Below the pieces are notes generated by a model. It was not told the DNA's origin. It ran no database searches and was given only the letters and a program-made list of their open reading frames with translations. Below, piece by piece: positions 58,002 through 62,254 of a stretch of DNA of 64,000 nucleotides. Every line of letters starts with the position of its first letter. Position 1 is the stretch's first letter. Origin of the DNA: an uncultured delta proteobacterium (GTDB taxonomy: Bacteria > Myxococcota > Myxococcia > Myxococcales > 40CM-4-68-19); contig CAIWCD010000001.1 of NCBI GenBank assembly GCA_903911145.1, positions 62,001-126,000 on the forward strand, given 5' to 3'. Both the position numbers and the translations under genes were made by a program.

Positions 58002-58068
58002 AGACCGGTCCAGTCCACATTCGATCAAACGCGCCCGGACGCCACGCGCAACGCCTCTGAGGATGAGC

Positions 58069-59286
58069 ATGCTGGAATTTCCCATCTACCTCGACAACAA
58101 CGCGACCACGCCCGTCGACCCGCGCGTGCTCGACGCGATGCTGCCCTTCTTCAAGAACGTCTTCGGCAACGCCGCGAGCCGCAGCCACGCGTACGGCTGG
58201 GCCGCCGAGGAAGCGGTCGAGTATGCGCGCGAGCAGATCGGGGCGCTGATCGGCTGCTCGGACAAGGAGATCGTCTTCACCTCGGGCGCGACCGAGTCGA
58301 ACAACCTCGCGCTCAAGGGCGTCGCGGAGTTCTACGCGGACAAGGGCAATCACATCATTACGTGCCGCACCGAGCACAAGTGCATCCTCGACACCTGCAA
58401 GCGCCTCGAGCGCGAGGGGGTCAAGGTGACTTATCTCGACACCGACAAGCAGGGCCGCGTGACGGCGCAGCAAGTCCGCGAGGCGATCACCGACAAGACG
58501 ATCCTCGTCTCGATCATGTTCGCGAACAACGAGATCGGAACGGTGCAGCCCATCGCGGAGATCGGCAAGGTCTGCCGCGAGAAGGGCGTGCTCTTCCACA
58601 CCGACGCGGTTCAGGGCGTGGGCAAGCTGCCGTTCAATGTCGACGAGATGAATGTCGATCTCGTCTCGCTCTCTGCGCACAAGATCTACGGACCCAAGGG
58701 AGTCGGCGCGCTCTACGTGCGGCGCAAGCCGACGCGTGTTCGCGTGACGGCGCAGATCGACGGCGGCGGCCATGAGCGCGGGATGCGGTCGGGAACGCTG
58801 AACGTGCCGGGCATCGTCGGATTCGGGAAGGCCGCGGAGATCTGCAAAGCGGAGATGGCCGAAGAAGGAATCCGCACCGGCAAGATGCGTCTGCGGCTCC
58901 AGGACTACTTCTTCAAGCACCTCGATCACCTCGAGCTCAACGGGCATGCGGATCATCGGCTGCCGGGCAATCTGAACATCTCGTTCGCCTACGTCGAGGG
59001 CGAGGCGCTGATGATGGCGATTAAGAACGTCGCGGTGTCGAGCGGCTCGGCCTGCACGTCGGCCAGCCTCGAGCCGAGCTACGTGCTGCGCGCGTGCGGC
59101 GTCAGCGAGGAGCTCGCGCATACGTCGATCCGCTTCGGGATCGGGCGCTTCACGACCGACGAGGAGATCGATTACGTCGGGAAGTATGTCGTCGATCAGG
59201 TCGTCAAGCTGCGCGAGATGAGCCCGCTGTATGAGATGGCCAAAGAAGGCATCGATCTCAACTCGATCGAGTGGGCCGCTCATTAG
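58069..59286 (+). CDS. iscS: Cysteine desulfurase IscS
   Basis: A 405-residue PLP enzyme that takes sulfur from cysteine for Fe-S clusters. [14 protein letters not shown] opens the fold; [10 protein letters not shown] holds the PLP-stacking His, [10 protein letters not shown] the PLP lysine (Lys205), and [17 protein letters not shown] the mobile loop with catalytic Cys329. This is the IscS rather than SufS type by loop length. The ATG at 58069 has GAGG 6 bases upstream; the ATG at 58063 abuts that site. It should lead the isc operon, but iscU lies 2.5 kb downstream behind an inserted segment. Confidence 0.96.
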
Positions 59287-59300
59287 TCGGTGAGTTAATC

Positions 59301-59402
59301 GGCGAGCCGGATCGACGTGCTCGATCCGTGCTCGCTCACGGACTCCCGCGAGGGGAGTCCTAACGCTGCGCGCGGCATCGACCACGTCGACTCCGGCTCG
59401 CC
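59301..59402. repeat. 102-bp palindromic repeat, copy 1
   Basis: Begins 14 bases after the iscS stop. Outer arms GGCGAGCCGGA...TCGAC pair with GTCGA...TCCGGCTCGCC (about 22 of 24 positions), and a small central hairpin GGACTCCC/GGGGAGTCC sits at 59340-59360. The copy at 61641-61742 is about 94% identical in the opposite orientation. A transcript of either strand would fold into a cruciform-like structure, as in REP/BIME or MITE elements. Confidence 0.85.
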
Positions 59403-59558
59403 TTTGCGCTCTACAAGACTACTGAGTTCATCGAGTGAATCGCGGGATTGCTCAGCCTGAGGTTGTTCGGGCAGTTGGCTATGCGTTCGCGCTTCAGCTT
59501 AGTTCGTGCTGGATCAGGGTTGGTTAGTCTTAATCAAATTTAATTAAGGTTAATGACG

Positions 59559-59993
59559 ATGAATCCTCCTCCGAGTGGCTGGCCGCGGATCTCTTCGGCG
59601 CTCTTTTATCGGGAGCCGATTGCGGCGATCGATTGGCTCGTGCGCGCGCTGGGGTTCGAGGTGCGCATCAAGGTAGTCGGTGACGACGGAGCGCTGCACC
59701 ACTCGGAGCTGACGCGCGGGGGCGGCGTCGTGATGGTGTCGAGCGCGGCGGCGGATCCGAGCCGGCGCAGTCCAGCAGCGCTCGGTGGCGGGAATACGCA
59801 GGCGCTGATGATCTATGTCGATGGCGTGGATGCGCTCTGCCAGAGGGCGCGCGCGGCTGGCGCGAAAGTCATCAGCGAGCCGAAGGATACCGATTACGGC
59901 GCCGAGTATTGGTGCGATCGGGGATGCGAGATCGAGGATCCCGAGGGGCATCGCTTCTGGCTTGTGCAGCGGCTGCGGACGGCCGGGGAGTAG
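59559..59993 (+). CDS. VOC family (glyoxalase/bleomycin-resistance-like) protein
   Basis: A 144-residue protein with two beta-alpha-beta-beta-beta modules. RISSALFYREPIAAIDWLVRALGFE and LHHSELTRGGGVVMVSS form the first, GNTQALMIYVDGVDALCQRARAAGA and YGAEYWCDRGCEIEDPEGH the second, close to the PhnB-like VOC branch. Metal ligands may be His49-50 and the Glu/Asp of IEDPEGH; the substrate is unknown. The ATG at 59559 has AAGG 9 bases upstream; another at 59553 is too close. It is the first gene inside the segment between the two 102-bp repeats, with an AT-rich stretch (59527-59552) just upstream. Confidence 0.82.
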   Translation: MNPPPSGWPRISSALFYREPIAAIDWLVRALGFEVRIKVVGDDGALHHSELTRGGGVVMVSSAAADPSRRSPAALGGGNTQALMIYVDGVDALCQRARAAGAKVISEPKDTDYGAEYWCDRGCEIEDPEGHRFWLVQRLRTAGE

Positions 59994-60069
59994 TCAGAGC
60001 GCGGCGATGAATCGACGATCGCCGTCATCGAATCATCCGACACCTGCTCGAGTCGCTTCACGACTGAAC

Positions 60070-60702
60070 TCACAGTGCCGGCACCGTGAACTCCATCGCG
60101 TTGGACTCCACCAGGCCTTGCCAGAACGTCGGGAGCTCATCCCAGTGCGCGCGATAGTTCGCCGCTTTCTTCTCGGCAGTTTCGTTGATGCTCTCCTTCG
60201 CATCCGCACCAGTGCGCTGCGAGGGAGTCGCTGCAAGGTAGCGGGCAATCCATTGCGCGCGGGTCTGCGCGTGGAGCTCGAGACGGGCCTGCAGCTTGTA
60301 TCGTCCGGGCGCCAACGGCGCGCCACCGTACGGGACCTGAATCCACGCCCCGTTGGGATCGAACGAGACGATGTAGCTCTCGAGGACCCGGCGCTCGCCC
60401 GGACGCAGCGGCGCACTCGGCGGTGGCGGCGGCAGCGGCGGCGCGAACCCGGCCTGGTCGCGCATATCGGCGAACGCGACGCGAACTCCCGCAGCGTCGA
60501 GCAGAGTCGGCACCAGCGGCTCGGTCGGCAGTTCGACTGGCTGCGCGCTCTCGTTGATCAGCGTGAGCGTCAGCGTGATGCCGCGATAGATCGTCGTCGC
60601 CGGATTGGGCGCTTGTGTCAGCTCCAGCCGCGGTCGCGCGCTCGCGCTGATGCTTGAAGGAAGGCCGGCCACGAGCACCGCCAATGCGAGAGGAAGAATC
60701 AT
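60070..60702 (-). CDS. Exported protein, unknown function
   Basis: A 210-residue protein with a signal peptide (MILPLALAVLVAGLPSSISA) and one beta-sandwich-like domain (LELTQAPNPATTIYRGITLT, LTLINESAQPVELP, GGAPLAPGRYKLQARLEL). The pattern resembles intracellular-proteinase-inhibitor (BsuPI) or CARDB-like sandwiches, but I am not certain. The C-terminal third is helical (DAKESINETAEKKAANYRAH). It lies inside the repeat-bounded segment between iscS and iscU and reads against both. Confidence 0.55.
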   Translation of the reverse strand: MILPLALAVLVAGLPSSISASARPRLELTQAPNPATTIYRGITLTLTLINESAQPVELPTEPLVPTLLDAAGVRVAFADMRDQAGFAPPLPPPPPSAPLRPGERRVLESYIVSFDPNGAWIQVPYGGAPLAPGRYKLQARLELHAQTRAQWIARYLAATPSQRTGADAKESINETAEKKAANYRAHWDELPTFWQGLVESNAMEFTVPAL

Positions 60703-60794
60703 GGAAGCGCGAGAGTATCCCGCCTTGCGCGCAAAGTGCTCGGCTCGAACGGAGCTGTCGCCGAGCACAACGGTCTGTGCGTCGAGGAACCGAG

Positions 60795-61487
60795 CTAATC
60801 GTCTCCGCGTCGCGTGAGCGTCGGGTCCTGCATGAAACGATACGTCGGCCCAGCGGGCGCGTCGTCGGGCGGCGACCAGAGCAGCGTGGTGGGCGTCTCG
60901 AGAAAATCAGGCGGCAGCAGTTCGCGCCGCTCGACGGCGATCGGATCGCCGCTGAACTCAATCCCGAGATTCATTCCCTCGACGCTTCGAGCGAAACGAA
61001 TGCGCGCGCGCCACTGCGCATCGGTGATGGCGTACGAGGACCAGTCCTCCTCGGCGATCGCGAGCCACGAGCCATCGACGAGCTGAAGGAGAAACCAGAC
61101 GACGCCGTCGCCATTCTCGTCGGTCGCGGTCAGGATGCGCTTGACGTCGATCGTCTCGTCGGTTGCGTGGCGCAGCTGCCGCTCTTCGTCGCGCGCGATC
61201 TCAGCGAGCCGCTCTTCAAGATTCGCTTGCGCTCGTCTCATCCCGAGAATGCCGGCCGCCAATATGACCAGCGCGGCAACTGCGAGCGCGACGAGGAGTG
61301 GCGGACTTTGCGTTGCGGCAGCGCCGACGACAAGCCCGACGAACATGAGTGAGTGCGAGATCAGCGCGTCTTTGCGTGCGACGTCGCGGCGTTGCTTCGC
61401 GATTGCGCGCCGCATCTCGTAGTACCTCGTCACGACGGCGCGCTCGGCATCCGTGAGCGGGCGAGGCAATGCGGACATGCTGCTCAT
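60795..61487 (-). CDS. Membrane protein with two helices, unknown function
   Basis: A 230-residue protein. A charged N-terminal helix (AVVTRYYEMRRAIAKQRRDV) precedes two hydrophobic helices (LISHSLMFVGLVVGAAA, LLVALAVAALVILAAGI) and a cytoplasmic domain (TDETIDVKRILTATDENGDG, WFLLQLVDGSWLAIAEEDW). I do not recognise the family. It is transcribed with the exported protein downstream (93 bp gap) and lies within the repeat-bounded segment. The ATG at 61487 may give way to one 9 bases later. Confidence 0.55.
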   Translation of the reverse strand: MSSMSALPRPLTDAERAVVTRYYEMRRAIAKQRRDVARKDALISHSLMFVGLVVGAAATQSPPLLVALAVAALVILAAGILGMRRAQANLEERLAEIARDEERQLRHATDETIDVKRILTATDENGDGVVWFLLQLVDGSWLAIAEEDWSSYAITDAQWRARIRFARSVEGMNLGIEFSGDPIAVERRELLPPDFLETPTTLLWSPPDDAPAGPTYRFMQDPTLTRRGDD

Positions 61488-61640
61488 CGCTCAACCGTAT
61501 CGCACGAAGCGATTCATCGAGCGCAGCCGGTCGGGCCGAAGCGCGCCGAGCCGAATCGTGAATCACGCTCGACAAATCATCCGCGCGACATCCGAGCCAA
61601 TCACCCGTCCCCCGCGTCCACATTGCAAGAGCGCACGATA

Positions 61641-61742
61641 GGCGAGCCGGAGTCGACTTGGTCGATGCCGCGCGCAGCGATGGACTCCCCTCGCGGGAGT
61701 CCGTGAGCGAGCACGCCATCGAGCAAGTCGATCCGGCTCGCC
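61641..61742. repeat. 102-bp palindromic repeat, copy 2 (inverted)
   Basis: Inverted copy of the element behind iscS, same length, differing at about six positions including two compensating single-base indels. It ends 95 bases before iscU. Together the copies bound 59403-61640. I did not see further copies in the window. Confidence 0.85.
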
Positions 61743-61759
61743 GATACCTCCGCGAATTG

Positions 61760-61784
61760 AATGTGGACTCAACCCATCCACATT
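61760..61784 (+). promoter_or_regulatory. Inverted repeat upstream of iscU
   Basis: AATGTGGA (61760-61767) and TCCACATT (61777-61784) are perfect 8-bp arms 9 bases apart, 54 bases before iscU. TCCACATT also stands before iscS. This may be an operator for a local iscU promoter made necessary by the inserted segment. The rest of the 350-bp gap 61488-61837 holds the repeat copy and no gene. Confidence 0.4.
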
Positions 61785-61837
61785 TGCTAGATCCCGCGTT
61801 GCGACTGCGTTAGATCAAGCCGCACCGGAGGCATTTC

Positions 61838-62254
61838 ATGGCGTACGGCGACAAGGTCCTGGACCACTACGAGAACCCGCGCAACGTCGGGACGATGGAC
61901 AAGAACGATCCCAGCGTCGGGACCGGACTCGTCGGCGCGCCAGCTTGCGGCGACGTGATGCGGCTGCAGATTCGCATCGCGGACAACGGGCAGATCGAGG
62001 ACGCCAAGTTCAAGACGTTTGGATGCGGCTCGGCGATCGCATCGAGCTCGCTGGTCACCGAGTGGGTCAAGGGCAAGTCGGTCGACGAGGCGATGACGAT
62101 CAGCAACAAGCAGATCGCCAAGGAGCTCGCGCTGCCGCCGGTGAAGATCCACTGCTCGGTGCTCGCGGAAGACGCGATCCGCGCGGCCATCGCGGACTGG
62201 CGCAAGAAGAAGGGCATCGCGGAGCCGGCCGAAGCCAGCGCGGCGGCCCACTAG
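61838..62254 (+). CDS. iscU: Fe-S cluster scaffold IscU
   Basis: A 138-residue scaffold on which IscS builds [2Fe-2S] clusters. Start MAYGDKVLDHYENPRNVG, ligands Cys37 (GAPACGDVM), Cys63 (FGCGSAIASSS) and Cys106 (HCSVLAEDAI), and LPPVK at 99-103, the tag recognised by the HscA chaperone, are all present. Asp39 that tunes cluster release is kept. GGAGG lies upstream of the ATG. iscA, hscB and hscA follow closely. Confidence 0.97.
   Translation: MAYGDKVLDHYENPRNVGTMDKNDPSVGTGLVGAPACGDVMRLQIRIADNGQIEDAKFKTFGCGSAIASSSLVTEWVKGKSVDEAMTISNKQIAKELALPPVKIHCSVLAEDAIRAAIADWRKKKGIAEPAEASAAAH

Follow-up and report, generated by a model that had tools for sequence, protein, structure and literature searches.

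Why do iscS and iscU stand apart in this genome, and what are the two palindromic repeats at the edges of the DNA between them? The window, which is the whole stretch of 64,000 nucleotides analysed, contains iscS (58063–59286, plus strand; Pfam aminotransferase V) and iscU (61838–62254, plus strand; Pfam NifU_N). A reading made from the sequence only had placed three genes between them, and the open reading frames and Pfam matches bear out both the genes and their coordinates: a VOC/glyoxalase-type gene (59553–59993, plus strand; PF00903) and two genes without a Pfam family, one for a 232-aa protein (60070–60768, minus strand) and one for a 230-aa protein with a hydrophobic segment (60795–61487, minus strand). 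The same reading had described two 102-bp imperfect palindromes, and these were found as described, inverted relative to each other and identical in 97 of 103 aligned columns (94%). Copy 1 (59301–59402, plus strand) starts 14 nt past the iscS stop codon and copy 2 (61641–61742, minus strand) ends 95 nt ahead of iscU; both belong to the type named A below. According to folding, each is one long imperfect hairpin, with an MFE of −77.3 kcal/mol and z = −8.8 for copy 1 as RNA and z = −8.9 for copy 2 as DNA, and in neither case was any shuffled sequence equally stable.

The element is present elsewhere in the genome as a dispersed family. In this assembly (G000; 5.3 Mb, 53 contigs), at least 57 copies were found, 29 of C type and about 28 of A/B type. 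BLAST with one copy reaches about ten places; the covariance model R1 gives 35 matches, which include some copies matched a second time on the opposite strand. The A/B pattern matches 31 times and its reversed control 5 times; a few of the 31 were taken as chance in the count of about 28. The C pattern gives 29 matches and the controls none. Copy 1 scores 91.2 bits with R1 (E 6.7e-17), being itself part of that model. Within the class the family is restricted, as far as searched, to this genome: the C pattern is absent from all 146 other class genomes searched, the same-genus genome G001 included, R1 has no match in 39 relatives, and no copy was found in G001, the assembly of which is 88% complete and consists of 1070 contigs. 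Elsewhere in the phylum the A/B pattern gives 8 single matches in 194 genomes, which is chance level. The family is known mainly from one assembly, and plasmid searches with one B-type and one C-type copy gave no match. R1, built from G000 alone, finds four copies in the gammaproteobacterial MAG JACPSH01 (E 1e-5 to 8e-4), a weak match in Nitrospira RSF151 (E 0.02), and matches with E of 0.06 or worse in Chromobacterium, Uliginosibacterium, and Niveibacterium. A pattern scan of named genomes returned at least 117 stretches, mostly GC-rich chance, from which those with palindromic arms were kept; among the matches listed are structured relatives with the same core in JACPSH01 and look-alikes in Nitrospira RSF151, Niveibacterium, Uliginosibacterium, and Chromobacterium, those of the last three genera being possibly members of a different family. 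A further JACPSH01 copy (L088:2184-2272) escaped the pattern and was caught by the covariance model. Niveibacterium sp. 24ML carries near-identical repeats of about 114 bp (CTGAATAAGTGGCTGCGACGG...; L093, two copies in L123, and L129) with the same GTGCTCGCT/CTGCGCGCG core, which are probably another family. Three matches from a scan of IMG/VR were rejected as family members since they have no hairpin.

The copies are not placed at random. Genes were called with a simple purpose-written codon-usage caller, in whose calls some copies partly overlap a gene. Of 55 copies, 31 are found −4 to 22 nt, mostly 1–8 nt, away from the stop of a gene on their own strand; a random intergenic point with random orientation would do so in 7.2% of cases (p about 1e-21). 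The copy behind iscS is one of the 31. The iscU-side copy has no same-strand stop ahead of it and is an exception, one of the 24 copies of 55 that lack such a stop within this distance. The tagged genes are ordinary (IscS, LexA, MreB, UDP-glucose dehydrogenase, acyl-CoA dehydrogenases, a sigma-54 activator, a Lon-type domain), and most copies stand singly behind such core genes, with no recognisable cargo. Copies are dispersed in both genome orientations and form no arrays, and several adjacent facing pairs turn out to be convergent genes, each with its own tail. Only one close pair in direct orientation was seen (C14:111105 and 111770), and the apical hairpins of its two members are nearly the same. 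Outside this genome, the copies checked (three in the gammaproteobacterial MAG and one in Nitrospira) all lie −1 to 42 nt behind a same-strand gene.

The element is non-coding and 99–134 nt long, and what is constant across the family is an asymmetric core, CCGTGCTC...CTGCGCGCGG, set in helices that are specific to each copy yet Watson–Crick complementary. In copy 1 the left half of the core, CCGTGCTCGCT, occupies 59326–59336 (plus strand); GTGCTCGCT is invariant in A1, and CGTGCTC is also found in C-type copies. The right half, GCTGCGCGCGG (59365–59375, plus strand), faces the left half with a conserved T.G wobble, a T/C mismatch, and an unpaired T. Between the two halves stands the apical hairpin GGACTCCC-GCGAG-GGGAGTCC (59340–59360, plus strand), with a stem sequence that varies among copies, and in many A/B copies the apical loop is GCGA or GCAA, of GNRA type. 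In the 3′ arm one C stays unpaired (TCGA-C-TCC; position 59391, plus strand), a feature of most A and B copies and of many C copies. The C-type interior is a longer conserved stretch, ACATGCATCCGCGGC ... GGCCGCTCCTGAACTGCGCGCGG. The 3′ flanks of the copies hold CTTGGWCCGGACGAAAAG-like sequence and a recurring CCGGAC-AAAAG-like stretch; a T-run behind the hairpin was not found in them. Rfam covariance models had no match in the window copies, in a sample of A, B, and C copies, or in the outside relatives.

The stems around this core differ from copy to copy and still pair. In A1, 97.4% of cells pair; 39 cells show two-sided changes and none a one-sided change, the values for shuffles and slid controls being far lower. 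The 25 C-type copies compared have 25 distinct stems; in the ten positions outward of the core, 95% are Watson–Crick within a copy’s own arms versus 46% when arms are swapped between copies, with G.T and A.C at 0.8% each. In the outer stems of 54 copies, a strand-symmetric count gave G.U frequencies of 1.8% (21 pairs) for the sense and 2.2% (25 pairs) for the antisense strand; it replaced a first count, 44 G.U versus 13 A.C, that was due to a folding bias. The idea that the variable stems were copied from adjoining DNA was rejected, as the longest matches were 8.0 versus 7.7 with swapped loci. A G.T frequency of about 2%, the same on both strands, points to a process at the DNA level. Template switching is described as a maker of perfect stems (PMC8794818), and arm-to-arm copying via template switching in replication would explain stems that are copy-specific and Watson–Crick. 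Since the mismatches of the core stay “uncorrected,” we infer that something must select for them.

Which kind of element has such features? We consider it probable that this is a dispersed non-coding palindromic family, REP- or MITE-like, which has spread in this genome and is met with preferentially just past stop codons, in one orientation. Each stop-side copy would give its gene a large 3′-terminal hairpin. The copies presumably spread by mobility, with an enzyme that may recognise folded DNA, single-stranded or cruciform, through the conserved mismatches and unpaired bases, and replication template switching may rewrite the stems arm to arm, so that complementarity is kept while the sequence drifts. 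For the iscS mRNA, protection of the 3′ end, termination, and slowed ribosome release are candidate effects, and these would be secondary. No transposase, recombinase, or target-site duplication was tied to the element. REP sequences with their GTAG and CGTC families, REPINs, and BIMEs are dispersed intergenic palindromes with many copies per genome, often just past stops and sometimes in inverted pairs (PMC3733652, PMC12306157), and the element described here is similar in all these respects. However, it is 99–134 nt long, against 20–40 bp for REP, it has several helices with conserved internal mismatches, and each copy within a subfamily has a stem sequence of its own. No match to the Y1/RAYT (IS200) transposase (PF01797) was found in the genome, while control genomes were positive. 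As for the GTAG tag, a TAG often precedes C-type copies and is the stop codon of the gene, and A/B copies vary. ERIC/RU-1, RU-2, RU-3, and other bacterial MITE-like elements measure 103–168 bp (PMC2759123). They resemble the element in their length near 100–130 bp, their intergenic position, and their presumed non-autonomous mobility, and its dispersed, non-coding, lineage-specific copies are as in MITEs; the conserved core, the strongly diversified complementary stems, and the same-strand position behind stops set it apart from ERIC/RU by description. Its behaviour is closest to that of a giant REP or MITE settling just past stop codons. Literature searches on the core sequence and on palindromes at stop codons led to papers about REP, ERIC/RU, and template switching, and none of these recognisably describes this element.

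A broader proposal, which we hold only tentatively, is that these copies represent an undescribed class of large structured DNA repeat present in unrelated phyla, in which an enzyme that reads a folded strand would place copies behind stops, and the stems would be rewritten, near-perfect in each copy, around a fixed asymmetric core. Rather improbable is that the copies are functional 3′-UTR RNA hairpins (terminators, shields against RNase, or the mark of a protein-binding regulon), which are selected on the transcript and have the core as their RNA-binding site. The same-strand orientation at −4 to 22 nt from stop codons, the very stable fold, and the GNRA-type loops would suit such a role, and REPs of E. 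coli at 15 nt or less from a stop are reported to stall ribosomes (PMC12306157). Like intrinsic terminators, the element is a strong GC-rich hairpin directly behind the stop codon. However, no T-run follows, it is far longer than a terminator, it shares a sequence core among copies, and it is absent from all relatives searched; the many copies located elsewhere than behind stops also speak against function in a 3′-UTR. In stems under selection as RNA, G.U intermediates would be expected on the transcribed strand, and the rarity of G.U here, no commoner on sense than on antisense, is contrary to this.

The copies might also be folded-DNA recombination sites, used by an integron-like or another structure-guided recombinase in cassettes of a gene plus a site. 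An attC site is an imperfect palindrome in which extrahelical bases are conserved and stems vary, and its orientation is gene-then-site. The element shares this logic, its conserved mismatches included; yet the RYYYAAC/GTTRRRY boxes are absent from the conserved columns of A1 and A2, copies are dispersed in place of arrays, and the neighbours are core housekeeping genes. No integron integrase was found among the ten tyrosine recombinase loci scanned, several weaker PF00589 loci being left out: all were below the TIGR02249 cut-off, the best score being 148 against 265 for a protein that is XerD. As candidates for an integron integrase, the tyrosine recombinases scanned were rejected, since they are of XerC/XerD and phage type only. 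We regard this explanation as improbable. For this element, neither the length and RAYT transposase of REP systems nor the boxes and integrase of attC sites were found. We class it with the dispersed palindromic repeats, as a new form of these.

What remains is the split of the operon itself. In nearly all readable contexts of the family and order, iscU follows iscS directly, at roughly 13–170 bp, and the readable iscS neighbourhoods of these relatives lack all three extra genes (VOC, 232-aa, 230-aa); the segment is therefore new in this lineage, and the two closely related copies stand at the edges of a lineage-specific insertion. In G001, a convergent sensor-kinase/response-regulator gene lies next to iscS and no iscU is present within 1.5 kb; iscU is on another contig, behind unrelated genes and without the repeat. 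Since G001 has the two genes apart with no copy found, the repeats are not required for the split. Just behind iscS, G001 has a different palindrome, CACCGCAGAGACGCGGAAACGCAGA...TCTGCGCCTCTGCGGTGA (L189:1380-1445). Ahead of iscU, both genomes share TGGACT-N18-TAGATC (61764–61793, plus strand, with an extended −10 TGC), although the upstream genes are wholly different; it is judged promoter-like by sequence comparison, and its conservation in G001 argues against the suggestion that the repeat forces iscU onto its own promoter. One other locus was checked in relatives. The DctM and citrate synthase genes are overlapping and convergent in the family relatives G004 and G006, and in this genome 2.26 kb of DNA holding two additional genes and two elements separates them (C52:31200-33458; L272:11200-13458). 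No clean empty site was found at this locus, where another 2.3 kb of DNA accompanies the elements; here again they sit in newly inserted DNA, which they may or may not have brought. The proposal that the window copies enclose a composite mobile unit or an invertible segment is supported in that the repeat occurs elsewhere and that the segment, missing between iscS and iscU in family relatives, is new, and the two copies (92–94% alike) are much closer to each other than copy 1 is to its next BLAST matches (about 79–82%, over shorter or equal stretches). But with no recombinase gene between them, neither an integron integrase nor a Y1 transposase detected in the genome, iscS and iscU apart in G001 as well, most copies bounding no recognisable cargo, and facing pairs that are tails of convergent genes, it is the least likely of the explanations considered and very improbable.

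The locus carries a warning that repeats beside an operon break need not have caused the break. The family itself offers about 57 natural replicates in one genome, in which both arms of the stems have changed and G.T intermediates are almost absent, beside mismatches that are conserved. Such replicates allow a direct test between compensatory change by template switching in DNA and selection on RNA, and they allow asking about the nature of the enzyme that would set hairpins just past stops.
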